Virus record (IMG/VR): IMGVR_UViG_3300031974_002889
Coordinates: 1-25,230 of that record
From: a virus
DNA: 25,230 nucleotides
Reading direction: 5' to 3' (one strand)
The first letter of the stretch is position 1; every line of letters starts with the position of its first letter. The notes beneath the pieces were generated by a model that ran no database searches, was not told where the DNA came from, and was given only the letters and a program-made list of their open reading frames with translations. This document shows, one piece after another, positions 1,002 through 23,119 of this stretch. A program made the position numbers and the translations under genes.

Positions 1002-1208
1002 CTATCTCTTCTGTTTTGCGAGTTCTTTTGCTCGCCTTCTATCAGAGCGTTTTTTGGCTCTCCTTCTTTTTTCTGAGGGTTTCAGATATCTGGTTGTTTC
1101 TTTGAATTCGTCAATAATTCCAAGCTTTTTAACTTTTTTGTTAAATCTCTTTATTACTCTTTCAATATTTTCGTTGCGTCGTGGACGCACAACTAAATTT
1201 GTAGCCAT
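1002..1208 (-). CDS. rpsU: Phage-encoded small ribosomal subunit protein bS21
   Basis: This 68-residue protein has the full plan of bacterial bS21. It begins with a short beta-strand (NLVVRPRRNENIE), followed by an amphipathic helix (RVIKRFNKKVKKLGII). The middle is the conserved aromatic and basic stretch around YLKPSEKRRRAKKRSDRR, and the Lys/Arg tail ends in KQKR. In bacteria, bS21 binds the 30S platform near the anti-Shine-Dalgarno end of 16S rRNA. The start codon overlaps the upstream stop (TAATG), so it is translationally coupled to the scaffold-like gene and made with the head proteins. Viral bS21 genes are known in aquatic phages. Replacing or supplementing the host copy on ribosomes is the usual proposal, and it is not shown here. 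Confidence 0.9.
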   Translation of the reverse strand: MATNLVVRPRRNENIERVIKRFNKKVKKLGIIDEFKETTRYLKPSEKRRRAKKRSDRRRAKELAKQKR

Positions 1209-1651
1209 TATTTTTTACCCATCATTCTTTCAAAGATAACAGATGATTTGCTGCCAAATATACTAGATATGTCAACACCAGGATCTTGCGGATTTACACC
1301 GGAAAGTGCCCCTTGTGGAGCATTTGGTGATGTTGGAGCAGGAGCAGGTTCGGTACCTTCAAATAAGTCAACACCGCCATAAGAACTCTTGCCAATAGCA
1401 TCTAACAACTTCTTCTTTTGTTCTTTGAGTTGGTTTGATCTTTTTTGCTCATTTTCAAGCATTTTGTTATTAGATCTTAAATTTTCATTAACACGTTGAG
1501 AACTCTCATTCACAATGTTGCTTGCTGAGGGAAAGCTATTAGCCACTTCGCTTATTACATGCGATAGGACCCCCTTCTCCTCAAATAAAACTTCTTTGAT
1601 ACACTCTTTGATAAGAGGCTTCAAAATCTTTTTTAGTTCGTTCTTGTTCAT
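1208..1651 (-). CDS. Prohead scaffold-like protein with N-terminal tag (gp22 position)
   Basis: A 147-residue protein encoded directly after the prohead protease, with TAATG coupling at both ends. This is the place of the T4 gene 22 scaffold, although T4 gp22 is longer (about 269 aa). Residues 3-25 form a charged amphipathic helix (NELKKILKPLIKECIKEVLFEE) similar in style to the tag on four other proteins in the window. Residues 45-85 are a predicted coiled coil. Next comes YGGVDLFEG, where L-F-E followed by G matches the T4 gp21 cleavage rule (I/L-x-E then a small residue). A Pro/Ala linker and a C-terminal segment ending in ERMMGKK follow. Scaffold function is inferred from gene order and coiled coil. 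Confidence 0.6.
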   Translation of the reverse strand: MNKNELKKILKPLIKECIKEVLFEEKGVLSHVISEVANSFPSASNIVNESSQRVNENLRSNNKMLENEQKRSNQLKEQKKKLLDAIGKSSYGGVDLFEGTEPAPAPTSPNAPQGALSGVNPQDPGVDISSIFGSKSSVIFERMMGKK

Positions 1652-2274
1652 TAGTCTCTCAAAATCTTGTTAAATAAATCATCTATAATTAGACCTTTTT
1701 TCTGATTTATTTTGTTTTCGTACACATTAAGTGTTTTTCTTTGCTTTCCTTCCGGAAACATATAGGCATTTGGTGTTGAAGGCTCCGAGACGATGTCAAA
1801 GCATATAAGTTCAAAATCTTCCTGAACCACTGTGCCTTGTGTCGACTCTCTAACTGAACCTAGTCCCCTACTTGAAATCCCAAGTTTAATACCAGAGTTT
1901 ATCAAGCCTTTAAGAATGTTACCAGAAGGAGTGTTAAGAACTTTAATTTTGCCCATAACATCTTTTCCTTCCCACCACATGTCTACAACAACATGAGAAA
2001 CATTTCTCAGATTGATAACAGAATCGTCTGGATGGTCTAATTCTCCGAGTGCTCTGTTATCTTTAATAACGGCTTGATATCTTGTAATCTCTTTTCTCAA
2101 AACTTCACAAGGATAAATTCTGCCATTACCATTTTTAGTTTCACAAGTCTGCATACGTCCAGAAAGATAGATAGCACCTGCTTGTACTTCTTTCTTTTCC
2201 CGTTCAGTTAGGAGGTCTTGGCAGACTCCGTCTTTACATAATTCGTAAAATTCTGTTAATAATTGTTTTGGCAT
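1651..2274 (-). CDS. Prohead core protease, T4 gp21-like (family S80)
   Basis: This 207-residue serine protease is expected to act inside the prohead, cutting scaffold and internal proteins before DNA packaging. The core of the family is visible. GELDHP holds the probable catalytic His81, a strand-rich block follows (HVVVDMWWEG, MGKIKVLNTPSG), and GISSRG holds the probable nucleophile Ser134 or Ser135. The length matches T4 gp21 (212 aa). The N-terminus has two I/L-x-E sites (LLTE at 5-8 and 21-24), consistent with self-processing as in T4. ATG 2274 is preceded by GAGGAAAG. The gene follows a strong hairpin terminator by about 12 bases, so its expression may depend on read-through or on an unseen promoter. 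Confidence 0.9.
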   Translation of the reverse strand: MPKQLLTEFYELCKDGVCQDLLTEREKKEVQAGAIYLSGRMQTCETKNGNGRIYPCEVLRKEITRYQAVIKDNRALGELDHPDDSVINLRNVSHVVVDMWWEGKDVMGKIKVLNTPSGNILKGLINSGIKLGISSRGLGSVRESTQGTVVQEDFELICFDIVSEPSTPNAYMFPEGKQRKTLNVYENKINQKKGLIIDDLFNKILRD

Positions 2275-3270: not shown

Positions 3271-4085
3271 TACTTTATCATCTCCTCTAGAAGATCTTGA
3301 ATGTAAAAAATCTCTTTAACCATAGTCTCGGTGATTTGGTTTGTTTTATACTCTTCAAGTTTGTTTAAAACACGGTCTGTTTTAGCCAAAACGGCCTCAT
3401 TTTTAGGACTTTTCTCCGAATTGATAACATTAGTAAGGCCTTTTTTAAGACGAGAAATTTCCTCGTTTAAGAACGATTTAAGGCCAAGTCCATTATCTGA
3501 AAAAGAAACAATATAATTCATCAATAAATCTTTCTGCTCACTTCTTAGAGTTTTGGAATAAGTCTCATTAAACTTCTCTGTAAAAGTCTTATAAGTAAGG
3601 TTGTCTATGTGCTTCATCTCTGATTTTGTTTCTTTCTCGGTAGTTAGCAGCTTAACCACCCTGGACTCTACTATTAGTCTGTTTTTGGCTTTCATCTTGT
3701 TGTCTTGTAGGTACTGGCCGATTGAAGCAAGATCTTTATAGTTTGCTATGAAATTGGCAAATGCTGCGGTTGATAGAGTTTCGTTGATTTGCTTAATTAA
3801 TTGTGTTTGCTCATTGAACACTTTTTTTCTGTCGATGTTTTGAAAGTCTTTTTTAGTCTCAACTAAAAACCTATGGGCAAAGTCTTTTTGTAAATTGTCG
3901 CATTCAGTTATGGACTTATAAACATCAAGCTCGGCTTTGAGTGCTGAACCTTTTTTGAAATTTTCCTTTATGATGTTTATAATCTTTGCTTTTTTGTCGT
4001 TTTCTTTTCTAACAATTGCTTTTGTTAATTCCTTTATAAGACATTCATAAAGAAAAGCGGTATTTCTTTTCTTATTGTGTTTCAT
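3270..4085 (-). CDS. Conserved alpha-helical head-region protein (271 aa)
   Basis: The start ATG at 4085 lies inside the end of the portal gene, a 14-base overlap. The 271-residue product is almost wholly helical and charged (Lys, Glu, Asn), with no membrane segment or Cys-rich motif. The beginning (KKRNTAFLYECLIKELTKAI) resembles the start of portal-adjacent genes in other environmental T4-like phages. It has I/L-x-E triplets such as LNEE and LLEE, but these are common in helical proteins and do not prove protease cleavage. A prohead core or scaffold-associated role fits both composition and place. Confidence 0.65.
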   Translation of the reverse strand: MKHNKKRNTAFLYECLIKELTKAIVRKENDKKAKIINIIKENFKKGSALKAELDVYKSITECDNLQKDFAHRFLVETKKDFQNIDRKKVFNEQTQLIKQINETLSTAAFANFIANYKDLASIGQYLQDNKMKAKNRLIVESRVVKLLTTEKETKSEMKHIDNLTYKTFTEKFNETYSKTLRSEQKDLLMNYIVSFSDNGLGLKSFLNEEISRLKKGLTNVINSEKSPKNEAVLAKTDRVLNKLEEYKTNQITETMVKEIFYIQDLLEEMIK

Positions 4086-6027
4086 CTTCTTTTTTCTCCG
4101 TTTTTAATAAACTTTCAAGAAGTTTGTTGACTTCTTTTTTAGTATTAAATAGTTTTCTCTCTTCAACTTTGTGATTTTCAGTAATGCCTTTTGATAATTG
4201 TCTTAGTTCGGAAGCTCCCATAAAAATAGTCCTAGCAGTATTACCGTATTCACCAGTTGCTTGGTTTTTATAATTCTTTTTTCTGCCGCCTTTATCATAA
4301 GTGCTTTGATGCCTTTTATACTTGCCTCTCTTATACTGCGGTGCATCGGGGTGCTTCCATTTAAAATCGTCTCGTTTTGCGGGGGGTTCGGCTAAAACAA
4401 CATCTTCTTCACCAGCAGGCTTCTCAGGTGTAGTCTCTGCCTTAGTTTCTGCGGGCGGTGTTTCATCTCCGCCACCAAGGTCTCCACCAAGGTCTCCACC
4501 AAGATCGCCAAGGCCACCACCCAAGTCTCCTGTTAAGGCTCCACCAGCATCTGCCGGTGCTTCGTCTCCTGCTCCGGCTCCTTCAAGCTGTGTTGTGAAC
4601 TTCTTATCAAAAAACATTTCTCTCTGGTTTCTAAGAAACTCTTCTTCTGAAATTCCCAACATATTCTCGGCAACCCATCGTTTGCTGAAATATCCTTCGG
4701 TAGCATTTCCTGCTGCTTCGAATTTAACTTTCCAATGCTCAAGCTCTTGAAGTTCTGCGATCTTCGATGGGTTATTAAGGTGCAATGAGAAAGACAACAA
4801 ATCGTCCCCTCTATAACCAAGAGTAAAGAGATGAATAATCCCCATCTTTTCCAATTCGGAAATAACAACTCTTTGTAGTCTCTGAATCGTTCTGGAAAAG
4901 CGAATATCTTTTTGTGCAAGAGTGGTCTTATCTTCTTGTGCTCCCTCGCCCATGGTTAAATAAGACTGTGGGATCTTGAGAGCAGCGAACAACTTATCCT
5001 TAAGGTACTTAACATCTTCGACAGTCCCGGTAAATTGACCACCAGGTAAATTGATAATCTCTGATGCGGTTCCACCACGAACAGGAATAAAATAATCTTC
5101 TTCTACTGACATCGGATTATAACGAAGATCAACACGACCAGTAGTAGGATCAACAACTTGATGTCGCTTCATCTGGGTCATAACTTTCTGCATATACTGC
5201 TCTACATCTTGTGGGGCAATGTTACCAACATCAATCTTGAAAACTCGTCGTTCTGGTGATCTAACAATACGATAAGCCATCATAGCATCTTCAAGAAGGG
5301 TCAACTGCCGCCAGATACGTCTTGCTGGTTCCAAAACAGAAGTTCCATATGGGACATGCTTATCATTTCCAAGAACTCTGAAATGGGCAACTTGCCAGTT
5401 CTCAAGTGTTAATCCGGCAGAGTTCCACTGATATTGTACATAATTTGGATTGGTTTCGTCTTCACCTTCTAGTCTTTCAATTTCTTGTGAAGGGATACCA
5501 ATACAACTTCTAATTCCAGTTTCTTCATCAATATCCAAATATAAGAACAAATCACCATACTTACACATTGTGCGAGACCATCCAAATAAGTTATGGTTTA
5601 TATTCAAAACATTAAAATACAAAGATTGTAATACTGACTTAATTTCTTCGTTAGGGCACTTGATCTTAATCATGGGATTGAGACCAGAGTAAGTTGTCAT
5701 TTCATCGGCATAGATATCTAATGCGGAAGCGATAATTGGCTCGTATTCCATTTCATCGAAATCCATGTATCTCTCTGCTCTGTTTCTATTAGAAATCATA
5801 TTAGCAGTTAAAACATTCATTGGATTGTATTCTGCTTTCTTGAATTGCTTTCCAGAGGCAGATTTGAATTTCTTCGCATAAACATCTAAATGCTTTCTTC
5901 GCAGTTGCCGACCTGTTTGAGTCCTTCTGTTGACAATAGGTCCGGAAAACAATTTTGTCAAAGACCTGAAAAGACTGTTTGTTTCGTTATATGGGTTATT
6001 ACCCTTTTTTCTATATTTTCTAGCCAT
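4072..6027 (-). CDS. Portal vertex protein, T4 gp20-like
   Basis: A 651-residue portal protein, which forms the ring through which DNA enters and leaves the head. Diagnostic portions are YEPIIASALDIYADEMTTY near the N-terminus, the crown and wing region with FRVLGNDKHVPYGTSVLEPA, and RIVRSPERRVFKIDVGN. IPQSYLTMGEG leads the stem and tunnel region. All agree with the T4 gp20 family, whose T4 member is about 524 aa. The extra length is at the C-terminus: a flexible Gly/Asp/Ala/Pro linker (about residues 480-550), then a basic segment (KWKHPDAPQYKRGKYKRH) and a helical tail. ATG 6027 follows AAGGAT, 5 bases after the terminase stop. It is the second gene of the terminase-portal pair. Confidence 0.93.
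   Translation of the reverse strand: MARKYRKKGNNPYNETNSLFRSLTKLFSGPIVNRRTQTGRQLRRKHLDVYAKKFKSASGKQFKKAEYNPMNVLTANMISNRNRAERYMDFDEMEYEPIIASALDIYADEMTTYSGLNPMIKIKCPNEEIKSVLQSLYFNVLNINHNLFGWSRTMCKYGDLFLYLDIDEETGIRSCIGIPSQEIERLEGEDETNPNYVQYQWNSAGLTLENWQVAHFRVLGNDKHVPYGTSVLEPARRIWRQLTLLEDAMMAYRIVRSPERRVFKIDVGNIAPQDVEQYMQKVMTQMKRHQVVDPTTGRVDLRYNPMSVEEDYFIPVRGGTASEIINLPGGQFTGTVEDVKYLKDKLFAALKIPQSYLTMGEGAQEDKTTLAQKDIRFSRTIQRLQRVVISELEKMGIIHLFTLGYRGDDLLSFSLHLNNPSKIAELQELEHWKVKFEAAGNATEGYFSKRWVAENMLGISEEEFLRNQREMFFDKKFTTQLEGAGAGDEAPADAGGALTGDLGGGLGDLGGDLGGDLGGGDETPPAETKAETTPEKPAGEEDVVLAEPPAKRDDFKWKHPDAPQYKRGKYKRHQSTYDKGGRKKNYKNQATGEYGNTARTIFMGASELRQLSKGITENHKVEERKLFNTKKEVNKLLESLLKTEKKEDETQ
4474..4509 (-). 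repeat. Three tandem 12-base repeats in the portal gene
   Basis: Three head-to-tail copies of ACCAAGGTCTCC (plus strand; the third has two mismatches) encode repeated LGGD units of the flexible portal linker. The array is in frame, so slippage would change the linker length without breaking the gene. Confidence 0.8.
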
Positions 6028-6032
6028 TTATA

Positions 6033-7619
6033 TTATCCTTTGTAAATCCAAAAAAAATCTTTTGTTTGCTTAATTTCGTCTTTATATTTCTCTTGCTGTG
6101 TTTGGGAAAAACCATTCATCCCTTTTATACTAGTATTTAGTTTTGTCGTATTCAAATACATAGAATTAATCATTGCTTTTTTATACTGTTGATCTTTTTC
6201 ATTAACTTGCAAAGCTGTATCTCTCACCCAACAAGTTATTGCCAAAGCCATCACTAAGTCATCGTTATAACTTCTCATTGCCTGTGGTTTTCCGTTATTC
6301 CAGACAAATGTTTTAAATTCATGATATGATCTAGAAGAATGAATCTTTATTATCTTGTTTCTGATAAACTCTTCTAACTTAGCAACTATCAGTGGTCTTG
6401 TCTTCGTGGAAGTGGTAAAGCCAGCCACAGCATTCTGCATGTTTTCCCCTTGGATTTGAGTTACAAATTCATGAGTTGCCTTGATAGAATAGTAAAGGTT
6501 TTTGTATCCTAAATCTATTAACTTTTCTAAAATAGAGATACCAATACCGTTGTTTTCAACTACCAGTAAACAGTTTCCGTATTCTGCACCCGCAGAGTAT
6601 AACATCTGGGCATACATATCCAGACTTGGCTTTCCCTGATATTCCGCTATGACTTCCATTGTTTCAAGTTTCAAAATATGAAATACAGAACTATCTGCTC
6701 CGTCTCCACGGGCAACATCGGCAACGAGAAGATATGTAAATCCCTCTTGGTACTTTTCCCAAATCCAGAAGTTTCTATCGTGGCCTGTTCGATAATCGGG
6801 CTCTTTGATACACTTGTTGATCCAAGTAAGATCATCTGGGTGTATGACGGTATCTCCTGATGTATTAAAGTTACACAGCAATTCCTGGGCGATTTGTCGC
6901 TTTGACATGTTTTTAGTCTCGCGTTCAAACCACTCAGCATCTCTTTCTGGGTGGACATCCCACATTAGTTCAATTGGGTTAAATTCGTTTTCTCCATCTA
7001 AGGCTTGGGTATATGTTTTGTGAAACCAATTCCCAGTACCTTTGGGTGTGGATAAGGCAATACAGCGACCCCCTGTTGCTAGTGTAGAATAAACAGCAGT
7101 CCAGATTTCAGTCATCTTTTCAATGTGTGCAGCCTCGTCTACAACAAGCAGAGATAGAGCCTCAGAACGACCAGCATCTTCTGATGTCGGAACTGCCTTG
7201 ATAATTGAGCCATTAGATAACTCAAATGAAGTTCTGTTGTCGACTGAGATCTGGGCAACCTTCATCCAATCTGGGAGGTTCTTCATCATACTCTTTACTT
7301 TCTTTACAAGGTTCGCGGCTGTGCTAAACTTTGTGGCAAGAACAACAATGTTCTTTTCTTTGTGAAACAACATAAACCAAACACAATAAGCAGCGGTGAT
7401 CGTAGAGATCCCCAACTGCCTTGCTTTGAGTATTACATTAAAACGAAAATCATTATAATCTTGAAGCAAATCGTTCTGATATGGAAATATCTTGAACGGT
7501 ATTAGCCCCTTCATAGGGTGACTAATTCTACAATAGTTGTTTATAAAGTAAGACGAGTCTTTGCCGGATTTAATGATTTCTTTTATTATGTCTTGCTTTG
7601 ATAGCTTGAAACGAGCCAT
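6033..7619 (-). CDS. Terminase large subunit, T4 gp17-like
   Basis: This is the ATP-driven DNA packaging motor and headful nuclease. ATPase motifs are clear: a Walker A-like KARQLGIST (65-73), Walker B LLVVDEAAH (157-165) and motif III STPKG (190-194). The RNase H-like nuclease domain shows Asp301 in LLVADVARGDGADS, Glu355 in LLVVENNGIG and Asp453/454 in SYNDDLVMALA, so the three acidic positions are intact. At 528 residues it is shorter than T4 gp17 (610 aa). The start overlaps the stop of the 181-residue gene before it, and the portal gene follows 5 bases after its stop. This fixes the packaging module. Confidence 0.95.
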   Translation of the reverse strand: MARFKLSKQDIIKEIIKSGKDSSYFINNYCRISHPMKGLIPFKIFPYQNDLLQDYNDFRFNVILKARQLGISTITAAYCVWFMLFHKEKNIVVLATKFSTAANLVKKVKSMMKNLPDWMKVAQISVDNRTSFELSNGSIIKAVPTSEDAGRSEALSLLVVDEAAHIEKMTEIWTAVYSTLATGGRCIALSTPKGTGNWFHKTYTQALDGENEFNPIELMWDVHPERDAEWFERETKNMSKRQIAQELLCNFNTSGDTVIHPDDLTWINKCIKEPDYRTGHDRNFWIWEKYQEGFTYLLVADVARGDGADSSVFHILKLETMEVIAEYQGKPSLDMYAQMLYSAGAEYGNCLLVVENNGIGISILEKLIDLGYKNLYYSIKATHEFVTQIQGENMQNAVAGFTTSTKTRPLIVAKLEEFIRNKIIKIHSSRSYHEFKTFVWNNGKPQAMRSYNDDLVMALAITCWVRDTALQVNEKDQQYKKAMINSMYLNTTKLNTSIKGMNGFSQTQQEKYKDEIKQTKDFFWIYKG

Positions 7620-9432: not shown

Positions 9433-9891
9433 TTATTTATTAAGCCCTGCTCTCTGTAATAGGGGACTTACTATTTCTTCTCCCAGTTTGTCTATGACAA
9501 ATGCCTCTACATCCCTTCTTAAGAGATCAGCGTCTTTGTCTTTTGCCATGTAAAGCAACAAATTCATCATTGCTTCTGGGTTTTCCTGGGCCTTCTGAAT
9601 TTCTCGGAGAACTTTTTTGGCGGCTGCCCGGATTTCTCCTGGTCCGTGTCCAGAAGCTTGATCTGGATTGTTCAAATAGTAAGCTATTTTACCATTGCTG
9701 TCTTCCAAATCTTTAAGGATAGCATTTACTATCATGGTGGCACCGGAGACTTTGGTGTCACCTTGTTTTCCTAGGTAGTTCATTATAGCAGCTTTATTAG
9801 TATTGAGAAGCCATGTGAAGCCCTCTTTAAGCATCAGTTTATCAAGTTCTTCCTTGATCATTCTTTTTAATGTTTTAGTTGTTAATTTCAT
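9433..9891 (-). CDS. Tagged protein, candidate internal head protein (152 aa)
   Basis: The N-terminus, MKLTTKTLKRMIKEELDKLM then LKEGF, matches the shared tag on proteins at 22149, 22526 and 22894. L-K-E followed by G at 21-24 fits the gp21-type cleavage rule. After the tag the protein is mainly helical, with conserved-looking GDTKVSGATMIVNAIL, GHGPGEIRAAAKKVL and a C-terminal domain VEAFVIDKLGEEIVSPLLQ. It is not strongly basic, unlike the other tagged proteins. I do not recognise the mature part. It lies among envelope-protein genes, far from the other tagged genes. ATG 9891 follows a GGAG site overlapping the previous stop. Confidence 0.65.
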   Translation of the reverse strand: MKLTTKTLKRMIKEELDKLMLKEGFTWLLNTNKAAIMNYLGKQGDTKVSGATMIVNAILKDLEDSNGKIAYYLNNPDQASGHGPGEIRAAAKKVLREIQKAQENPEAMMNLLLYMAKDKDADLLRRDVEAFVIDKLGEEIVSPLLQRAGLNK

Positions 9892-10286: not shown

Positions 10287-13200
10287 CTAAATACTTACAT
10301 TCGCATATCCATTATCTTTCTGAATATCTATCGTCATATCAACGACATCTTTAAGAGAATCTAAATGAGAAATCAGAATAACTGTTTTGAATTGATTCTT
10401 GATAAGTCTCAACAAGTTTGTGAATCCTTCCATGTGATCTTGGTCTAAGGCAGTAGCCGGCTCATCAAGAATGAATAATTCTGATTTTGGCAGATTAGTG
10501 ATCGAGATCAGAGCCAATCGGATAGCCATAGAGGCGAGAGTTTTTTCTGCTCCTGAGCCCATGGACAAAGGCCGTGGATCATAAGAGGGATGCTTAATCA
10601 TAATATCTAAGTTTTTAGCATTATTGATGAAGAATACTTCAAAGTCAACGATATTCTCTAATACTTTGGAAATCTCCTCATTTAACAAAGGAAGCCGCTT
10701 CTTGATAATAGTATAAGGAATTCCGTTAGGATGCATACACTGCATGAATAAATCATAAGCAATCCAGCCTTTTTCGATATCTTCCATCTCTGCTTTGCCT
10801 TCTTGCAAGGATTTAAGAATTTGCTTTGTGGCACCCTCTTCCACCAAAAGGTTTTGCAGTTTGGTTCTGCATTTATCAAGTTTTGCTTCTTTTGAAGATA
10901 GCGAAGATTCTAATCCCGTTCTCTCTCTTAGCAGAGTTTCTAGGTTTTCAATTGCTTCACGGTTTTCCTCATACTCTTTAATTTTCAGACCAAGATCTTC
11001 TATTTCTTTGGCTAGAAGTTTTGATCGATCAACATTTGAAGAATGTTTGAGGGTCTTCGTTTCAACTAGTCTCTTGTGTGTTTCAACTCCACGACTTAAA
11101 TCTTCATACTTACTAATCTGATCTGTTACTGAATCGATGTCTAAATGCCTCAAATCTGATAATAAATCAACTTTCATGCTATCGAGGTTGGCTAACTGGT
11201 CTAAGACCTGAGGTAAAGAATTTGAGGCTTTTTGGGCATCTTTGACAAACTTATTGTCACAACAGTATTGACAGTTTGGATCATACTTGTGGTTATGAAG
11301 CATTTTCATTTTCTTTTCTAGGGAACTCTTTTCTCGTAATAAAGAAGAGCGAGTTTGGTCTAGTTTTTGAATTTGAGCCTGAATAGAGTCATATTCTGCT
11401 TTTTTGTATTTCAATGATTCTAAGTCAATAGATCTAAGTTCCTCTGATATTGAAGAAAGTCTTTCTTTTGATTCTTGTATTTCAGAAAACAAACCTAAGT
11501 TACTTTTCATTAAAATAGTTTTATCTCTCTGCTTTTGTGTAAGAAGCATATTGACTTGGTCAATGTTGATTATCTCTGCTGGTATATTAGCAATCTGTGT
11601 TGTTATAATATCCAGTTCCTGCTTGATAGCATCAAGTTGTGTTGATAAAGTATCACACAAAGAGTTCTGGATTTGTCGGTCTTCTTCAATTTCTTGGAGA
11701 ATCTCTTCGTTCTTTGTTATTTGCTTGTCCCACTGTTTCTCTTGCAATCTCTTGATAACACCCCGCATCTCAGCAGCATCTTTTTTAGCTAGTTTGAATT
11801 TGCTATCAAAGATTTCAAGATCAAGGAATTTGGCAAGAATCTCTTTACGCTTAGTTGAACCTTCTTTAACAAAAGAGAGAGAGTCAAGTTGGCTCGACAT
11901 GGACGTCAGGAGGAAGTCATCTATGGTTCCAAACCTTTTACGAATATTAGCATCTGTTTCGTTCCGGGTGGTTCCATTCAAACTTTCGTCTTCTGATATT
12001 AAAGAAAAGTCTAGATCAATTCTTGCTTCCTGAGTCTCTCTGCCTTTTAATCTTTTTGTGTATTTTTCTATGTTTCGGCAGATTTGATAGGTCTTATCTC
12101 CAACTTCGATTTGAACTTTACCCTTGGCTCTCTCTCGATTTTGGTTAACTATGTGTACGTTCTTTCGCTCTCCTTTCGAGGTTGTATTAAACAATGTGAA
12201 TAGAAGGCTGTCAACAATACTAGACTTACCGGAATAGTTGCGACCGAAGATACCAACAAGCCCGTTGAGTTTCTCAAAATTGATTTTATTCTTTTCTCCG
12301 TAATTAAACAGGTTGTCCCACTCTGCTTCTTTGATTTTCCAAACGACATTTCTTGTAACCTCCTCATTCTGTTGTGCGATGATATCGTACTTCTTATTGT
12401 GTTCTAAGACCTTTGAAATTACACTTTCGTCCAATTCCATTCCCGATAAATAGTCTCTTATGTAGCTTTCTTGCACTGAAAGGTCTCGCATGTTCTCTTT
12501 TAGCACAACATTTGAATAGTTTCCGTCATTTGAGGAGAAAGACTCTTTGCCGTTGATAGTGGTTATTGAGAAAGGCTTCCAGTGAATCTCTGCATATGAT
12601 CGAGCTTTTCGGAGCTTATCAGAAGGCAGGTTAGTTGTTGAAACTAATCGCAATCGACAGTTTCTAGGCACATGTATATCCTTTGGAACTGATCCGTCTT
12701 TCTCAAGCTTCACGGTTATGAAAGGACGAGGATTAGAAAGATACTTCTTTTTAACTGCAAACTTATCCTTTGATTCAATCTCCCAAAGAAGATAACCTTT
12801 AAGAGCAGATTCGCTGAACTTTTGCTGAATCAAGCTACCAGAGTAACGGACTCTTCCTTCGGAATCCAACTCCTGTTGACGATGAATGTCACCAAGCATA
12901 GCATAGTCAAAGTCTTTGAAAATGCTTATGTCGTCATCGCCTTGATCCATGGTCCAGTTGGCTCCGGTCTTGGACCCCATCATGGCACCGTGATACAGGG
13001 CCACATTAACAATGTTCGGGTTTGTTGGCTTAACCCAGTTATCCCGATCAAAGATAGAGAGAACATTGAAGCACAATCCGTCTTCTGGCTGGAATTCACC
13101 AGAGTCTTTTAGATAAATAAGATTAGGGTGTTTGAGGGCATTAACAATCGGAGTTATAGCATCCTGGCGGTCTTCGTTCTTCAAGTTGCCATCATGATTA

Positions 13201-13436
13201 CCTGCGATTATAATTGTTGGTGCTACATTCGCCAAGCCAATAAGAAACTCAGTGCATAACTGAAAATACTCTGGACTTAGCTGGGTCTTGGTGTGAGCGA
13301 TGTCTCCACAGACAGTAACATAGTCTACTTGCTCTTCAAGCAAAGACTCATACATTTTTTTGAAAACTACACGATACTCTTCGTGATATTTAAGGTTGCG
13401 AATGTGAATGTCCGCCATGTGTGCTATTTTGTACAT
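10287..13436 (-). CDS. Single-chain SbcD-SbcC (gp47-gp46, Mre11-Rad50-type) fusion
   Basis: One uninterrupted 1049-residue frame joins a nuclease and an ATPase that are normally separate. The N-terminal metallophosphoesterase has DIH (8-11), GDIAH (44-48), GNHD (79-82), a YHG His and GDIH (182-185). The ATPase follows with Walker A GRNYSGKS (398-405), a long coiled coil, a zinc-hook CQYC (722-725) and a second coiled coil. Signature SMGSGAEK (958-965), Walker B LFILDEP (987-993) and a SH switch complete it. T4 gp47 plus gp46 total about 900 aa. I start at ATG 13436, preceded by GGAGG, rather than 6 codons upstream. The expected role is processing DNA ends for recombination-dependent replication and host DNA degradation. 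Confidence 0.93.
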   Translation of the reverse strand: MYKIAHMADIHIRNLKYHEEYRVVFKKMYESLLEEQVDYVTVCGDIAHTKTQLSPEYFQLCTEFLIGLANVAPTIIIAGNHDGNLKNEDRQDAITPIVNALKHPNLIYLKDSGEFQPEDGLCFNVLSIFDRDNWVKPTNPNIVNVALYHGAMMGSKTGANWTMDQGDDDISIFKDFDYAMLGDIHRQQELDSEGRVRYSGSLIQQKFSESALKGYLLWEIESKDKFAVKKKYLSNPRPFITVKLEKDGSVPKDIHVPRNCRLRLVSTTNLPSDKLRKARSYAEIHWKPFSITTINGKESFSSNDGNYSNVVLKENMRDLSVQESYIRDYLSGMELDESVISKVLEHNKKYDIIAQQNEEVTRNVVWKIKEAEWDNLFNYGEKNKINFEKLNGLVGIFGRNYSGKSSIVDSLLFTLFNTTSKGERKNVHIVNQNRERAKGKVQIEVGDKTYQICRNIEKYTKRLKGRETQEARIDLDFSLISEDESLNGTTRNETDANIRKRFGTIDDFLLTSMSSQLDSLSFVKEGSTKRKEILAKFLDLEIFDSKFKLAKKDAAEMRGVIKRLQEKQWDKQITKNEEILQEIEEDRQIQNSLCDTLSTQLDAIKQELDIITTQIANIPAEIINIDQVNMLLTQKQRDKTILMKSNLGLFSEIQESKERLSSISEELRSIDLESLKYKKAEYDSIQAQIQKLDQTRSSLLREKSSLEKKMKMLHNHKYDPNCQYCCDNKFVKDAQKASNSLPQVLDQLANLDSMKVDLLSDLRHLDIDSVTDQISKYEDLSRGVETHKRLVETKTLKHSSNVDRSKLLAKEIEDLGLKIKEYEENREAIENLETLLRERTGLESSLSSKEAKLDKCRTKLQNLLVEEGATKQILKSLQEGKAEMEDIEKGWIAYDLFMQCMHPNGIPYTIIKKRLPLLNEEISKVLENIVDFEVFFINNAKNLDIMIKHPSYDPRPLSMGSGAEKTLASMAIRLALISITNLPKSELFILDEPATALDQDHMEGFTNLLRLIKNQFKTVILISHLDSLKDVVDMTIDIQKDNGYANVSI

Positions 13437-13627
13437 GTTTCCTCCATTGTACATTTTTCAATCCAATCAGGAAATACATAAATTTTTTCTGATGGACTAG
13501 AAACTACTAAAACAGTTGTTTGTTTGTTTATTGATGTTATAATAAATGCGGTGTCCATTAGAGAGAACCACATAGTTGAATTAAGGCATTTTTCGTTAAG
13601 ATAAACAAGATCTCCTACCTTAAACAT
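13424..13627 (-). CDS. Small VGDLV-family beta-barrel protein (67 aa)
   Basis: A 67-residue protein starting MFKVGDLVYL, the signature of a small family present six times in this window. The pattern of short hydrophobic strands (AFIITSIN, TTVLVVSS, IYVFPDWIEKC) suggests a small SH3-like or KOW-like barrel. It is coupled by TAATG to the Smr gene before it and overlaps the fused nuclease gene by 13 bases. The function is unknown. Nucleic-acid or protein binding would fit the fold but is not shown. Confidence 0.7.
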   Translation of the reverse strand: MFKVGDLVYLNEKCLNSTMWFSLMDTAFIITSINKQTTVLVVSSPSEKIYVFPDWIEKCTMEETCTK

Positions 13628-16207: not shown

Positions 16208-16391
16208 TTTTCTCCTCCAACTCTTTTACGATTTCTGTTTCCAACATCTCTGCTTCATGCAGATAGTTTCCAGCAAGCACATGCTTGCCTTTTCTTTGAG
16301 CCTCAAAAGCCTTTTCTCTCAACAGGACAAGTTTATCTTGTTTTTTTTCAAGAGATGTTTTAAAGCCAAACAATTTAAGAATCCAATCCAT
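16191..16391 (-). CDS. Small coiled-coil protein (66 aa)
   Basis: A 66-residue frame with ATG 16391, a GGAGG site and overlaps of 17 bases with each neighbour. The start is hydrophobic (MDWILKLFGF), perhaps a membrane-associated helix, and residues 13-60 are a charged coiled coil (LEKKQDKLVLLREKAFEAQ, then LETEIVKELEEK). I do not recognise a family, though small coiled-coil genes are frequent in phage early regions. The overlaps and ribosome site support it as real. Its role next to the primase is unknown. Confidence 0.6.
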   Translation of the reverse strand: MDWILKLFGFKTSLEKKQDKLVLLREKAFEAQRKGKHVLAGNYLHEAEMLETEIVKELEEKNGRED

Positions 16392-16560
16392 TTACTGCCT
16401 CCAATTCTACTTCGTGAAACCAACCGGCTTGATTATTGTTCCAAACAATTTTATAAAGTATGCCGTCTGGTGTTTCTAACAAATCTATAATAATACCAAT
16501 GTGGTCGGTTGCGTCGAAGATCCATTCGGAATCAAAAAAAACGAGATCACCCACTTGCAT
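16375..16560 (-). CDS. VGDLV-family small protein (61 aa)
   Basis: A 61-residue member starting MQVGDLVFFD. Strand-like segments (HIGIIIDLLE, ILYKIVWNN, WFHEVELEAV) follow the plan of the other five members, with an aromatic W near the end. It is the last of four consecutive copies and overlaps its neighbours by 14-17 bases. Function is unknown. Confidence 0.7.
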   Translation of the reverse strand: MQVGDLVFFDSEWIFDATDHIGIIIDLLETPDGILYKIVWNNNQAGWFHEVELEAVNGLDS

Positions 16561-16750
16561 TTATAATCTCCACATCATCTATTAAACAAATCAGTATATC
16601 CCCATTGAAATCAACACAATCAATATATTTGCCGTTTACAATACGAATGACAATCCCAATCGTTCCCCAGACTCCATGGCCCCCTATATCAGCATACGGA
16701 GGATCTGATGGTATCCTGTTTCTATACTTTATCAAGTCTCCGACTTTCAT
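16547..16750 (-). CDS. VGDLV-family small protein (67 aa)
   Basis: A 67-residue member starting MKVGDLIKYRN. The body has GTIGIVIRIVNGKYIDCVDF and LIDDVEIINA, consistent with a small five-strand barrel. It overlaps the upstream member by 29 bases and the downstream one by 14. The GxxGIVI motif in the middle is shared with other members. Function is unknown. Confidence 0.7.
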   Translation of the reverse strand: MKVGDLIKYRNRIPSDPPYADIGGHGVWGTIGIVIRIVNGKYIDCVDFNGDILICLIDDVEIINASG

Positions 16751-16922
16751 TTATTACCTCAAAAGAATAATCAAATAAAAAGAAATTCTTCTTCTTATCA
16801 TTTATATAAAAAGTAGCCCAATGATTATAATCATTATCTCTTTTGGTTCCCAAAAAGATTCCAAAAATAGAGCTAGCCCCTCCATCCTTAGGAGATATCT
16901 TTACCAAATCTCCAACTTTCAT
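16722..16922 (-). CDS. VGDLV-family small protein (66 aa)
   Basis: A 66-residue member starting MKVGDLVKIS. It is closest to the neighbour at 16957-17160: both carry a GIF(L/I) strand, a segment where a Trp precedes (A/V)-(T/V)-F-(Y/F)-I-N, and a closing LF-x-FDY-x-F-x-V. That similarity points to a recent tandem duplication. ATG 16922 has an excellent AGGAGG site 8 bases upstream. The 34-base gap before it is AT-rich and has no clear terminator. Confidence 0.75.
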   Translation of the reverse strand: MKVGDLVKISPKDGGASSIFGIFLGTKRDNDYNHWATFYINDKKKNFFLFDYSFEVINESRRLDKV

Positions 16923-16956
16923 ATGATAACCTCCTAAAATACTTTTGTCAAATTAA

Positions 16957-17160
16957 TTATAAAACTTTAAATTTATAATCAAACATAAAGAGGCTTATTA
17001 TTTCGTTATTAATAAAAAAGACCCCCCAATCTGGGCAACCCTCTGAGGCTCTGGTTTCAATGAAAATGCCCAAATAAGATTCTTCTGGGAGGGAGATCTG
17101 TTGAAGTTCTACAAGATCACCCCTCTTAAAAGAACAGTTTCCCATGTATTTCTTAAGCAT
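16957..17160 (-). CDS. VGDLV-family small protein (67 aa)
   Basis: A 67-residue member in which the motif is FKRGDLVELQ after an 11-residue N-terminal extension. An internal Met at codon 6 is an alternative start, but the longer start overlaps the UvdE stop by 8 bases and has AGGAAAG upstream. It shares WGVFFINNEI and LFMFDYKFKVL with the next gene, indicating duplication. Function is unknown. Confidence 0.7.
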   Translation of the reverse strand: MLKKYMGNCSFKRGDLVELQQISLPEESYLGIFIETRASEGCPDWGVFFINNEIISLFMFDYKFKVL

Positions 17161-18070
17161 GCTTGAAATCTTTCCTGTATTTAAGAAGTGCCCGTTCTTT
17201 CATCTTGCATTCAAGAACAACATCGACCTCTTCTCCAAAGTTCTCGAAAGGAGTGTAATACCAGTCAGAATGAGCACTAGCTCGCACTGAGCCATCCTCA
17301 TAGTTTTTCTTTGAGTTTGAATGGTGGCATTGTTGTTTGATGCCGCGATTCTGCCAGGTTTCACGAGCCATGAAGAATGCTTCTTTGTATGATACATCTT
17401 GTGGGCCGAGTTCATGGTGATGAGAGTCAAAGACTATAGGGACACCAATCCGAGAAGATAAGCCGTCATACAACATCTTAGTAGAAAACAAAGATTCTCG
17501 ATCATCATTCTCAACCGTGAGTCTAGACTGAGTGCTTGGAGAAAGTCTGGAAAAATTGCTGCAAAACCGGTCAAGAGTTTTGTCATGCTCTCCATAAGCA
17601 CCACCGACATGAATATTGATTTTAGCTTGTGGAGATTGCGGCAAGCCCATAAGGTCCATTTGAACTGAGTGGGCGTCAAGTTCTGCGACAGTTTTGAGAA
17701 CAACTTCATCTTTTGGAGAACCGAGACAATTAAAGGGGCCGGGGTGAAATGATAAACGTTGACCGCCAGACATTGCAATTTCCCCAGCCTCGGACATAAC
17801 ATCAGCAATAGCATCAATATCTGGCAAAGTAAAAATATCGTATTCTGAAAACCATGGAAAGAGGCACGAAGTCATACGATAAACTTTGATGCCGTTAGCA
17901 TTGTTCCATTCGATGATCTTCTTAAGAGCACGAACATTTGACAGTGCGATCTCAGAAGCATACTTGACACCTTTTGCTTGAAAGGTGCGTTTGATCATGC
18001 CCCGATTGCATGATATTTTTTGTTCTTGCAAAGTCATATTGATGCAAGCATAACCCAAGTTTACGGACAT
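17153..18070 (-). CDS. uvdE: UV damage endonuclease UvdE
   Basis: A 305-residue TIM-barrel nuclease that nicks DNA next to UV photoproducts and other lesions. Family marks are LGYACIN at the start, YRMTSCLFPWFSEYD, RLSFHPGPFN, INIHVGGAYGEHD, RLTVENDD and VFDSHHHELG; His, Glu and Asp metal ligands are all present. The length is close to that of bacterial UvdE. I choose ATG 18070 because GGAGG precedes it. The promoter at 18102-18129 lies inside the longer reading frame that starts at 18154. It is the first gene of the repair and replication unit. The likely role is repairing sunlight damage in phage DNA during infection, which fits an aquatic environment. Confidence 0.92.
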   Translation of the reverse strand: MSVNLGYACINMTLQEQKISCNRGMIKRTFQAKGVKYASEIALSNVRALKKIIEWNNANGIKVYRMTSCLFPWFSEYDIFTLPDIDAIADVMSEAGEIAMSGGQRLSFHPGPFNCLGSPKDEVVLKTVAELDAHSVQMDLMGLPQSPQAKINIHVGGAYGEHDKTLDRFCSNFSRLSPSTQSRLTVENDDRESLFSTKMLYDGLSSRIGVPIVFDSHHHELGPQDVSYKEAFFMARETWQNRGIKQQCHHSNSKKNYEDGSVRASAHSDWYYTPFENFGEEVDVVLECKMKERALLKYRKDFKHA

Positions 18071-18101
18071 GGGAACCTCCGTTGTGTGATGTGATACTAC
18101 T

Positions 18102-18129
18102 AATATAACACTATCAGAGATTTTGTCAA
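18102..18129 (-). promoter_or_regulatory. Sigma70-type promoter for uvdE and the replication unit
   Basis: On the minus strand TTGACA (18124-18129) is 16 bases from TATATT (18102-18107), giving a leader of about 25 bases to ATG 18070. It lies in the 80-base gap after the aldolase stop and sets the uvdE start. No terminator separates it from the upstream genes, so read-through transcripts are also likely. Confidence 0.75.
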
Positions 18130-18150
18130 GTATTTTATGTTTCTTTTTTA

Positions 18151-18747
18151 TCAATAAGGGGCTACACCACTCTTTAACACAATTTCACAAATATGCTCTA
18201 ATCTCTCAATATGTTCGTAAGCATCCCATGGATTTGCCCCAACCGCACACACACCGTGCCCTGCTTGGCCTACGATATCATAAACAACCCTATTGTCTTC
18301 GGTCATTGCCGTGTGTGTTGCAACAGCCAATTCTCTGCTAGTAACCGGCAGGATTGGAACCGTTGGGCCCACTTTCGTATATCTGCTAACCTCTGGGAAC
18401 ATCGATGCTAAATCTTGTAGATCCCAGCCAGCGAAAATAGCGGCAATTATATTTGTCGGATGAAGATGGACTACTGCTCTTGTGGGCTTATAGTTTCTCT
18501 GTAAAAGATAATGCATCTCAAGCTCGCCTGATGGCTTGGCACTAGGATCGCCCAGTGTCCTGCAAGCCTGATGATTGAAGACGACTTTTAGCATGTGTTC
18601 TGGGTGAATGATGGTCTTTCTCCAACCCGATGGTGTTATATACATCATCTTTTTTCCACTACGACAAAGAGAGACATTTCCGTCTCTCGTAGTTATCCAC
18701 CCCTTTTCGTAGGCTCGTCGCATTACATCGCCCATTGCTGTTAACAT
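18151..18747 (-). CDS. Class II aldolase/adducin-family enzyme
   Basis: A 198-residue enzyme of the zinc-dependent class II aldolase family, which also includes ribulose-phosphate 4-epimerase and methylthioribulose-phosphate dehydratase. Motifs are DGNVS (22-26) and TPSG (38-41) for phosphate binding, PSGE with Glu75, HLHP with His94 and His96, and AGHG with His164. The three metal His and the catalytic Glu are all in place, so the active site looks intact. It is about 20 residues shorter than E. coli fuculose-phosphate aldolase. It follows a cupin-like gene and structural genes. ATG 18747 has AAGGAAT upstream. The substrate cannot be told; sugar-phosphate conversion, perhaps for a glycan or for host metabolism, is an inference. 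Confidence 0.88.
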   Translation of the reverse strand: MLTAMGDVMRRAYEKGWITTRDGNVSLCRSGKKMMYITPSGWRKTIIHPEHMLKVVFNHQACRTLGDPSAKPSGELEMHYLLQRNYKPTRAVVHLHPTNIIAAIFAGWDLQDLASMFPEVSRYTKVGPTVPILPVTSRELAVATHTAMTEDNRVVYDIVGQAGHGVCAVGANPWDAYEHIERLEHICEIVLKSGVAPY

Positions 18748-20552: not shown

Positions 20553-20965
20553 TATCCTACTCCCGATGAGCCAGACCAATTTGTTAATAAATGGCTAGCA
20601 TCAATTCCTGTTAAGCCGGCAATAACAGAAGCAGAGGCTTCGTTTGCCGTATCAGACATTAAATAAACTTTTGTTAATTTAAGCTCTGCTTCAAAAGATT
20701 GTCCGTTTTTTAAAATTCCATAGTTATTATTTTCAATACCCTTAACACCGTTCGCAGAAGCCCCAAATCTAATTGGAGTTGCTGTGGCACCAGTATCTAA
20801 ATCGTTTGTTATAACTATAAAACGAGAAACTGAATCGAAAGAAACCTCTAAAGGTTCAGAGCCTGATGCTGGTACAGTCAATGACGATGTAAGAAACGGC
20901 TTCGCTGAGGTCTGAAAGGATGGAACATGTCCTAATCCAAATGTATATTTGAAGTTACTTGACAT
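20552..20965 (-). CDS. Virion protein (137 aa), coupled to the 510-aa virion protein
   Basis: ATG 20965 (MSSNFKYTFGLGHVPSF) is chosen because it overlaps the upstream stop as TAATG; two more upstream codons are open but unlikely. The 137-residue product is a Ser/Thr/Ala-rich beta protein (SVSRFIVITNDLDTGATATPIRFG). Its close coupling with the next gene suggests the two proteins are made together, perhaps as partners in one structure. No family is recognised. Confidence 0.65.
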   Translation of the reverse strand: MSSNFKYTFGLGHVPSFQTSAKPFLTSSLTVPASGSEPLEVSFDSVSRFIVITNDLDTGATATPIRFGASANGVKGIENNNYGILKNGQSFEAELKLTKVYLMSDTANEASASVIAGLTGIDASHLLTNWSGSSGVG

Positions 20966-22149
20966 TACCAAAATCTCCCCGGTACATTTTTACCAAAATC
21001 TTTATGTGCCCTACAAGCCCAATAACCTGACTTTGTTCTATCTGTCTTGTCGGCACACTTGTGGCGAGCGGCAAATGATTTGCGAGCCTCTGCACTATTC
21101 CAGTTTCCTTTTAGGCCGCCCTTTTTATCGCCATAAGTAATCTTTTTGATGTTTCCGGTCTTGGGATTGCGAACATAAACTTTATATTTTTTTCCGCCAT
21201 CAGTATTCTTTGTTGGTTTACCGATTGGAGGATCTTTTTTCTTTTTCTTTTTTGCTTCATCAATGTCGTCTTCATTTAACATTGGATGATCAAGCGGAAC
21301 TGGCTTTCCCTCGAATACACCGAAATTTCCAATGTCGGTTTCAAGAATATAATGCTTCTCATTTTCGTTTAGTGTATAACGGCCCTCAGAGTGCAATTTT
21401 CGCACTTCCCGGAAGAGCCTATAAAAACTATCACTATCGGGCCGGAAGACATTTTTATCTACCCCTACACCCTCTCTAATGTGGTATTTGAGATGCTTTG
21501 AAACCTTTGGGTCTTTAAGAAGGGCTTTGTTTTCTTCAAGTTTTGCTTTTGATAGCTTGGTGTAATACTCTGGGTCTTCATAGACATGCTCCATCGCAAT
21601 TTCGTGTGCGATTGCTTCGTCATCAGTATGTTCCTTCTCGACTTCAATGCCCTTTGAAAGTTCTTTTTCAATTTCTTCCACAGACACTTTATGCATATCG
21701 GCAAGCTGCTTATGTTGATCTTCCATAGAGCCTTTTAATTTGTCGCCGTAGCCACCGGGAAGTGCATCTTCATCAATTGCATCTTCTATTGCTTTTGCCT
21801 GATTTCCGTGTGCTTTAACGGCTCCCTTTAATTGATCTATAACATCTTCCAACTCATCCTTTTCTTTGTCGGTGATCTCACCTTCGTAAAGGGCCTCATT
21901 CTTCTTGGACTTATTGCCCCAGTTCTTGGCACCAACCTTGCGACATTTTGATAAAGCACCAGAGGCATAAGCCGAAGGCCATACTTTATAGCGAGACTTA
22001 ACTTTGCGATAGCATGCATCCTTTTTGGCTTTCTTTTTCCTTCTTTTTTGCCGCTTTCGCCTTCGTGCTCTCTTAGAAGCTTTCTCGTCAATTACAGATT
22101 CAAGCTCTTCTTTGATAATTTGTTGTAGTTCTTCTGTTGTAATTTTCAT
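20965..22149 (-). CDS. Tagged multi-domain protein, candidate packaged head protein (394 aa)
   Basis: The N-terminal tag (residues 1-22, MKITTEELQQIIKEELESV then IDE) is followed by a very basic patch (24-44). A domain with CYRKVKSRYKVWPSAYASGA and CRKVGAKNWG (46-78) follows. An acidic helical middle contains EKEHTDDEAIAHEIAMEHVY (about 160-200), a block I know as DUF5661-like. After PMLNEDDIDE|AKKKKKK comes a C-terminal domain with KVYVRNPKTG and a Cys-containing end (ARHKCADKTD, YWACRAH). Sites I/L-x-E at 20-22, 87-89 and 296-298 fit gp21-type cleavage, so the product may be cut into pieces. It overlaps the previous tagged gene by ATGA. Function is unknown. Confidence 0.7.
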   Translation of the reverse strand: MKITTEELQQIIKEELESVIDEKASKRARRRKRQKRRKKKAKKDACYRKVKSRYKVWPSAYASGALSKCRKVGAKNWGNKSKKNEALYEGEITDKEKDELEDVIDQLKGAVKAHGNQAKAIEDAIDEDALPGGYGDKLKGSMEDQHKQLADMHKVSVEEIEKELSKGIEVEKEHTDDEAIAHEIAMEHVYEDPEYYTKLSKAKLEENKALLKDPKVSKHLKYHIREGVGVDKNVFRPDSDSFYRLFREVRKLHSEGRYTLNENEKHYILETDIGNFGVFEGKPVPLDHPMLNEDDIDEAKKKKKKDPPIGKPTKNTDGGKKYKVYVRNPKTGNIKKITYGDKKGGLKGNWNSAEARKSFAARHKCADKTDRTKSGYWACRAHKDFGKNVPGRFW

Positions 22150-22526
22150 CGCTTTTTACCTTTCGCTGATTTCTTGCCCCATGATTTACCGCGGCCTCTT
22201 TCGCCACAAGCTCCGGGGGTTGGACGACATGATGGATATTTTGCTCGCTTCTCGCCTTTGGAGCGACCACATGGCTTACACTTTTTACGACCGGTCTTTT
22301 TATTTTTGCGGCATGTGTTACAATCAACCCAGCCGCCCTTCTTACCGGGGGCTCCTTTGCGGCCAAACCAATCACCAAGATTAGACTCTTTTGAAGATTC
22401 AGAACCGGCTTTCTTTTTTCTTTTCTTGGACTTCTTTTTACGTTTCTTTCGCTTTTTCTTTTCATCAAGAACAGAGGCCAATTCTTCTTCAATAATATTG
22501 TATAGTTCTTCAGTTGTCAAATTCAT
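22146..22526 (-). CDS. Tagged, very basic Cys-containing protein (126 aa)
   Basis: Residues 1-22 are the shared tag (MNLTTEELYNIIEEELASVLDE). Residues 23-39 are almost pure Lys/Arg. The rest contains GDWFGRKGAPGKKGGWVDC and Cys at 69, 72, 83, 86, 100 and 107, which would suit one or two zinc sites; a similar module occurs in other viruses by my recollection. With an L-D-E cut at 20-22 the mature protein would be a small, basic, metal-binding DNA-compacting type, like T4 internal proteins in character but not in sequence. AGGA precedes ATG 22526. Confidence 0.75.
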   Translation of the reverse strand: MNLTTEELYNIIEEELASVLDEKKKRKKRKKKSKKRKKKAGSESSKESNLGDWFGRKGAPGKKGGWVDCNTCRKNKKTGRKKCKPCGRSKGEKRAKYPSCRPTPGACGERGRGKSWGKKSAKGKKR

Positions 22527-22549
22527 GATAAAATTCCTAAACTAAATAG

Positions 22550-22894
22550 TTATTTTTCCATCTTTCGTACAACTGTTGCCGTATAGGCATCTGCTGCTTT
22601 TTTCGGAAGCCCCTTAGTTCGCGAAATGCACTTTGATTTACCTTTGAAAGTCTTATTATCAAAGCAGTCTTGTTTCTCTTTCAAGGGCGGAGTTGACTCT
22701 CTGAATTTATTTATTGCTTCGACAAAGGCGGCATATACTTCATCCAACGGGACACCTGCACTGGCTATGATCGCAGAGAACCTCATTTTAATCTGCTCCT
22801 TTTCCAAAGCCGGCAGATTTACAGATGGGCGATATCCCATCATTTCCTCTAATTCTTGTGATATTATTCTTTTGAGATCTTCTTTTGTAAGCAC
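22550..22894 (-). CDS. Tagged small protein (114 aa)
   Basis: The start is GTG 22894, with GAGGAAA upstream. Residues 1-20 (MLTKEDLKRIISQELEEMMG) are a shorter version of the tag. A helical middle (about 30-65) leads to a C-terminal module QDCFDNKTFKGKSKCISRTKG with KKAADAYTATVVRKME, a Lys-rich unit I know from other marine phage proteins. Two Cys (77 and 89) flank the TFKGK segment. It is the first gene of three consecutive tagged genes, which supports shared expression and destination. Confidence 0.7.
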   Translation of the reverse strand: MLTKEDLKRIISQELEEMMGYRPSVNLPALEKEQIKMRFSAIIASAGVPLDEVYAAFVEAINKFRESTPPLKEKQDCFDNKTFKGKSKCISRTKGLPKKAADAYTATVVRKMEK

Positions 22895-22927: not shown

Positions 22928-23119
22928 TTATTCAATCAACTTTACATATCCGATGTTGACCGCTTGGAGATAATCTATTGAAATCCAGTGTACTATGACA
23001 TAATCATGATTTAAAATTTGCATCACAATTCCGTAGCCCAAACAATCTTCTTCATACATCTTGTAAGGGTCACGATCAAATACTAAGTCACCGACACTGA
23101 GAGGGCAATCAAACATCAT
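22928..23119 (-). CDS. VGDLV-family small protein (63 aa)
   Basis: A 63-residue member with the motif LSVGDLVFDRD after a short extension (MMFDCP). Strands GYGIVMQIL, DYVIVHWI and VNIGYVKLIE fit the family plan. The start codon overlaps the end of the small membrane protein gene. It is separate from the tandem cluster but clearly related. Function is unknown. Confidence 0.65.
   Translation of the reverse strand: MMFDCPLSVGDLVFDRDPYKMYEEDCLGYGIVMQILNHDYVIVHWISIDYLQAVNIGYVKLIE

Follow-up and report, generated by a model that had tools for sequence, protein, structure and literature searches.

Many proteins of a group of mostly marine, T4-related viruses of bacteria begin with the same short N-terminal leader of about 22 residues, hereafter the KEEL tag. 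We consider it likely, from the sequences at hand, that this tag is a cleavable signal that targets proteins to the prohead and is the functional counterpart of the capsid-targeting sequence (CTS) of T4; packaging and cleavage are inferred, and there is no proteomics of KEEL-tagged proteins. Established at the sequence level are the sharing and reuse of the tag, its N-terminal position, its fixed terminal site, the unrelatedness of the bodies behind it, its co-occurrence with gp21 and the interchange of leaders. Host defence is a target of the T4 internal proteins, and most genes of T4-like phages from the environment have no known function. Should the tag indeed mark head cargo, a simple N-terminal motif plus [IL]xE would place hundreds of unknown proteins in a single class, whose members travel in the virion and may be delivered to the host. 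Since proteins with this label are most likely loaded into new heads, with the label then cut off by the protease of the virus, it points to many hidden virus passengers. The breadth of capsid targeting in T4-like phages, and its sequences, thereby become testable on an existing isolate.

Reuse of one N-terminal tag on unrelated proteins

The window, the whole stretch of DNA analysed, is the complete IMG/VR record IMGVR_UViG_3300031974_002889 (25,230 bases). Family searches identified part of a T4-like head module on its minus strand, with gp17, gp20 and gp21 followed by the 147-aa protein and the S21-like protein (Table 1). The tag MK[IL]TxxxLxxIIKEELxxxLxE is carried by the genes starting at 9891, 22149 and 22526. 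The original prediction had also counted the gene starting at 22894 among the bearers of a nearly identical helix, but the tag of that gene proved degenerate. The protein starting at 1651 does have the looser version that had been noticed there. All five leaders lie on the minus strand, and upstream of each is a purine-rich, Shine-Dalgarno-like stretch. When the tagged window bodies were searched against PHROG and Pfam, no function emerged apart from DUF5661 and unknown families, and no relatives of the bodies of 9433-9891 and 22550-22894 were found in IMG/VR.

Table 1. Tagged genes, leaders and head-module genes of the window
Feature	Position	Strand	Remarks
Ribosomal-S21-like protein	1002-1208		
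Putative prohead core protein, 147 aa	1208-1651	-	T4 gp22 position, directly downstream of gp21
Core-type leader MNKNELKKILKPLIKECIKEVLFE of 1208-1651, looser tag	1580-1651	-	next residue E
gp21-type prohead protease	1651-2274	-	Peptidase_S77, PF03420, E 2.9e-32
T4-type portal protein gp20	4072-6027	-	Portal_T4, 7e-80
Terminase large subunit gp17	6033-7619	-	
Tagged protein, 152 aa	9433-9891	-	
Type-I tag MKLTTKTLKRMIKEELDKLMLKE of gene 9433-9891	9823-9891	-	predicted cut after LKE-23; next residue G
Tagged protein, 394 aa	20965-22149	-	basic linker, DACYxKVKxRY domain (PHROG 727), DUF5661, C-terminal domain
Type-I tag MKITTEELQQIIKEELESVIDE of gene 20965-22149	22084-22149	-	predicted cut after IDE-22; next residue K
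Tagged very basic protein, 126 aa	22146-22526	-	pI 10.4; no family match
Type-I tag MNLTTEELYNIIEEELASVLDE of gene 22146-22526	22461-22526	-	predicted cut after LDE-22; next residue K
Protein with degenerate tag, 114 aa	22550-22894	-	
Degenerate tag VLTKEDLKRIISQELEEMM of gene 22550-22894	22838-22894	-	GTG start; no in-register I/L-x-E

We examined the tag in two further sets: 80 gp21-bearing relatives gathered without reference to the tag (the gp21-selected set) and at least 120 stretches from a pattern scan of IMG/VR for the tag (the tag-selected set). With the window added to the 80 gp21 loci, 45 of 81 sequences held 93 tagged frames. The two sets together contained at least 286 distinct tagged proteins in IMG/VR, whose tags share the consensus MK[IL]TKEQLKQIIKEELxx[VLI][LM]xE and are close to random beyond it. 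Under a looser rule, at least 366 tagged proteins fell into at least 260 body clusters, at least 225 of them singletons; the bodies are thus unrelated while the tag is kept, as had been proposed. Many of the loci are related, so these counts are not fully independent. A single 135-kb contig carried as many as 14 tags.

The core motif stood at residues 3 to 8 of the protein in 238 of 248 occurrences and elsewhere in only 10, mostly at mis-called starts (about 620,000 called residues), which excludes a chance origin. None of 38 random records, drawn with an arbitrary 15-mer, contained the tag pattern. Bacterial and archaeal genomes (257 billion bases) had it in six stretches, mostly marine metagenome bins, and three of the five such genomes bearing the pattern also encode an S77 protease. 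A tblastn search of cultured phages with a 37-aa tag returned nothing useful; length and low-complexity filtering are probably to blame, and this is no evidence of absence.

The predicted cut site and the exchange of leaders

T4 gp21 proteases cut after I/L-x-E, and the original prediction placed such a triplet in or near the end of each tag. In the tags of 22526 and 22149 and in the leader of the core protein (1651), the triplet stands in one register, with its E six residues past the last conserved hydrophobic residue of the helix, and in the core protein this E is conserved in nearly every relative; in the 9891 tag the E lies one residue further on. The degenerate tag of 22894 departs from this: it has no [ILM]xE at the usual place, and the LEE there is out of register and overlaps the helix. 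For the larger sets, we scored [ILM]xE with its E at +5 to +7 and shuffled residues +1 to +12. Because no search pattern reached beyond the final helix residue, what follows the helix provides an independent test. An in-register [ILM]xE was present in 57 of 77 tags of the gp21-selected loci, compared with 7.0 (sd 2.4) after shuffling and a maximum of 15 in 500 shuffles, and in 100 of 206 tags of the tag-selected loci, compared with 17 (sd 3.7). At most other offsets the motif occurred in about 1 to 3%. Conservation of the tag ends at this triplet; A, G and S, and also Q and M, are enriched at the residue following E, which is otherwise random.

Leaders of other head proteins end in the same way (a slash marks the end of the leader). 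Those of the major capsid proteins of related phages end in LRE/A, LKE/A, LKE/S, IDE/S or IKE/A, directly before the conserved mature start, that of T4 gp23 ends in LTE/A, and that of T4 ipII and ipIII is MKTYQEFIAE/A. Two observations call for caution. A perfect in-register [ILM]xE is missing from many tags (about half of those in the tag-selected set), which counts against cleavage, and the helix itself holds an IKE at residue 14 that is a second possible cut.

Whole leaders are also exchanged in front of one body. The DACYxKVKxRYxVWPSAYASGA body of window protein 22149 has at least five different, unrelated leaders in other phages, for example, MKITTEELQQIIKEELESVIDE, MKKEKLIELIKETLEEQMLDE, MKKELEIWKKFLEESTGSESNLSE, MEDLYEIDEDALEEIALDE and MRSSEFTAKAITE. 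Among 20 leaders of this body, 15 end in [IL]xE just before a linker that is basic or small; shuffled sequences gave 2.3 (sd 1.4), with a maximum of 7. Here, the predicted cut site is kept and the putative docking sequence is variable. Window protein 22149 also ends in a domain that forms the C terminus of a nucleotidyltransferase-like protein from Methylophilales phage Melnitz (39% identity, 8e-27); the Melnitz protein begins with the T4-type leader MKKFSEIIE/A. Likewise, a P-loop kinase encoded upstream of gp21 has a KEEL leader in loci L060 and L062 (MKITNKQLRQIIKEELNRVLRE in L060) and an ESWRRFLKE leader in L027 and L028 (MKTKLIIESWRRFLKE in L028). T4-GC190 of S-SM1, like Melnitz a marine myovirus, starts with MKKFSAFLNE/A, a T4-type CTS, and was found as a virion protein by mass spectrometry of purified S-SM1 (PMC3037559).

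These data bear on the possibility that the helix targets the prohead core and mostly remains uncut, with [I/L]xE being a helix-capping or composition effect. The tag is indeed rich in E, L and I, and the absence of a perfect site from about half of the tag-selected tags would fit; however, composition does not account for a fixed register some 20 standard deviations above within-region shuffles, for a site that is kept even when the whole leader is replaced, or for the same motif at the end of the capsid-protein leader. We therefore regard an uncut helix as unlikely.

Other recurrent leaders were seen in these phages. One, MKLIxENWRxFLxE, stands on unrelated bodies in L027, L028, L042, L045-L051, L054, L057, L058 and L159, with 28 called cases of ENWRxFLxE, and is probably another capsid-targeting leader. 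In a cultured isolate, Flavobacterium phage vB_FspM_immuto_2-6A (immuto; NC_055915), a third leader, ENFDLKKFLxENKLTxNSxxL, begins several unrelated proteins (genes at 1803, 103806, 117631 and 118632) alongside KEEL-like leaders on gp080, gp084, gp094 and gp095; its gp076 and gp077 carry FDLKKFLxEN leaders.

The prohead protease, its neighbours and the tagged proteins

The gp21-type protease that had been predicted at 1651-2274 was confirmed by its family match (Table 1), and its catalytic motifs, GELDHP and GISSRGLGS, are intact when aligned with T4 gp21 (pattern GELxHP and GxSSRGxGS). Its own N terminus reads MPKQLLTE/. Peptidase_S77 was present in 12 of 24 tag-selected records of 20 to 75 kb and in 9 of 12 of 80 kb or more. 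In a control draw with an arbitrary 15-mer, 4 of 26 records had it, namely, three above 170 kb in length and one of the 21 between 28 and 76 kb. Only two of the 15 tag records without S77 contain a portal gene, and in both it lies at the contig edge, where the sequence stops short of gp21; therefore, no tag record extends past the portal without the protease. Contig G009, with 14 tags and no protease, was considered as a refutation and set aside, as it starts inside the tail sheath gene and has no head module.

By our own reading, 31 of the 36 loci in which the gene immediately upstream of gp21 could be called have a tag on that gene; some of the loci are nearly identical. The neighbour immediately downstream is in most cases the 147-aa core-type protein, which is kept beside gp21 in most relatives, and otherwise a tagged gene. 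T4 has the prohead core genes 67 and 68 upstream of gp21 and the scaffold gene 22 downstream, at the same places, and T4 gp22 starts with MLKEQLIAE/A, close to the T4 CTS. One leader common to core and cargo may, by inference, be a general design. An antitoxin identity for the core protein was rejected; the RelB-like match of its leader is weak and below the cutoff.

Microcystis phage Mel-JY01 has the same order of terminase, portal, protease, S21 and capsid protein, and phage immuto has the same frame without an annotated S21. As in Mel-JY01, the S21-like gene of the window lies between the protease and core genes and the expected capsid gene.

Next, we compared the kinds of proteins that are tagged. 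When 131 tagged body families of at least 120 aa were searched in Pfam by one representative each, only ten Pfam families were matched (AAA_33 kinase, exonuclease domains, DUFs, FliG_C and EF-hand). Polymerase- and lysis-type proteins were looked for, and no recognised polymerase, primase, helicase, ligase or lysis enzyme was among these 131 representatives. By comparison, 70 untagged families of these loci gave matches to 47 Pfam families; read together with PHROG names, the matches included all of these kinds. This control is biased to conserved proteins, which inflates its annotation rate; the one result to rely on is that cytoplasmic machinery is absent from the tagged proteins. Tagged bodies are shorter than untagged ones. 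The expectation of extremely basic cargo was met by the window proteins 22149 (pI 9.4) and 22526 but did not extend to tagged proteins generally (strongly basic, 3.4% of tagged versus 4.2% of untagged); the protein with the degenerate tag also has a pI of 9.4. A KEEL-tagged DnaQ-like 3'-5' exonuclease was observed in three loci (L064:101-1156, L065:2210-3274 and L056:1478-2536).

That exonuclease (RNase_T) and the AAA_33 kinase could in principle work in the cytoplasm, which counts against head cargo, and no binding partner of the tag has been shown. The tag could instead be a helix that docks onto a different complex of the phage or the host, such as one for transcription or replication, unconnected to the head. 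We think this quite improbable, as such a helix would not be expected to end in a gp21-type cut site, to stand beside gp21, to co-occur with S77 or to be interchanged with ENWRxFLxE and T4-type leaders. A DNA-level effect, in which a recombination or translation-start cassette shuffles genes and the peptide is incidental, could draw on the 63% codon identity between tags of one locus (against 43% expected from pooled codon usage), from which it follows that some tags are recent copies, but more than one-third of same-residue codons differ though the amino acids are kept, non-homologous leaders retain the [IL]xE end and the core protein has a looser version at the protein level, leaving it hardly credible.

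A model of prohead targeting and its relation to known systems

The best reading of these results is that the tag is a lineage-specific counterpart of the CTS, not recognisably homologous to that of T4, and that gp21 removes it; cleavage is here an inference. An amphipathic helix of about 16 residues would dock into the prohead-building scaffold core, the docking partner again being inferred. Because the core protein beside gp21 has a tag-like leader, cargo may co-assemble with it, like with like. Once the shell is closed, gp21 would cut after [I/L/M]-x-E at residues 20 to 23, and the freed bodies would remain in the head with the DNA, possibly to be ejected into the host (injection is untested). 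The original interpretation of the tagged proteins as head cargo is supported, while packaging, actual cleavage and injection are not established.

A bolder extension is conceivable, and we are somewhat inclined to doubt it. The tag would be a lineage-wide plug-in cargo code that imitates the leader of the core protein, so that any gene gaining it would be loaded, trimmed and delivered to the next host. KEEL, ENWRxFLxE and T4-type leaders would then be interchangeable inputs to the gp21 pathway. In each lineage, dozens of unknown bodies would be injected early effectors, among them the polynucleotide-kinase-like enzyme and the DnaQ-like exonuclease.

The closest known system is the T4 CTS of IPI, IPII and IPIII, which is cut by gp21. 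T4 internal proteins have leaders of 10 to 19 residues. Targeting of the IPIII leader to the core depends on its residues 4 and 7, and cutting requires residues 8 and 10; on its own, the leader brings foreign proteins into the head, which has been shown for T4 only (PMC9026906). IPI is injected along with the DNA (PMC9958956). Both systems have a short N-terminal leader on unrelated bodies with an I/L-x-E end, accompanied by a T4-type protease, portal and terminase encoded in one genome. However, the KEEL tag is longer (about 22 residues), marks many more proteins, with as many as 14 in a single contig, and is unrelated in sequence; read side by side with MKTYQEFIAE, it had no recognisable similarity beyond the IxE end. 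It also differs in its resemblance to the leader that the core protein encoded beside gp21 carries. The leaders of S-SM1 GC190 and the Melnitz protein have the same layout but the T4 kind of sequence, not the KEEL helix. In giant phages, the prohead protease also removes N-terminal leaders; these are long propeptides with A-x-E sites, and the paralogues gp53 and gp54 are identical in their first 15 residues (PMC5694885). Unlike the KEEL tag, the head-protein propeptides of SPN3US and phiKZ (A-x-E or S-x-E sites) mostly exceed 100 residues and do not amount to a single tag that recurs on many unrelated bodies.

We found no earlier description of the KEEL tag. No mention of KEEL or ENWR leaders in phages was found in the literature searched, where text matches to the motifs were unrelated peptides only, nor was any paper found on "capsid targeting sequence" together with metagenomics. 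Novelty is provisional because subscription papers were largely outside this search.

Several other features of the window were observed. A UvdE-type UV endonuclease gene (17153-18154; 4.5e-54) overlaps a class II aldolase-family gene (18151-18747; 9e-28), and a gp47-type phosphoesterase and a gp46-type SMC ATPase are fused in a single 1,055-aa protein (10287-13454). Additionally, the small proteins encoded at 16375-17160, 13424-13627 and 22928-23119 have similar starts (MKVGDLV, MQVGDLV and VGDLVxxxxxP) and look like a local family repeated within the window.
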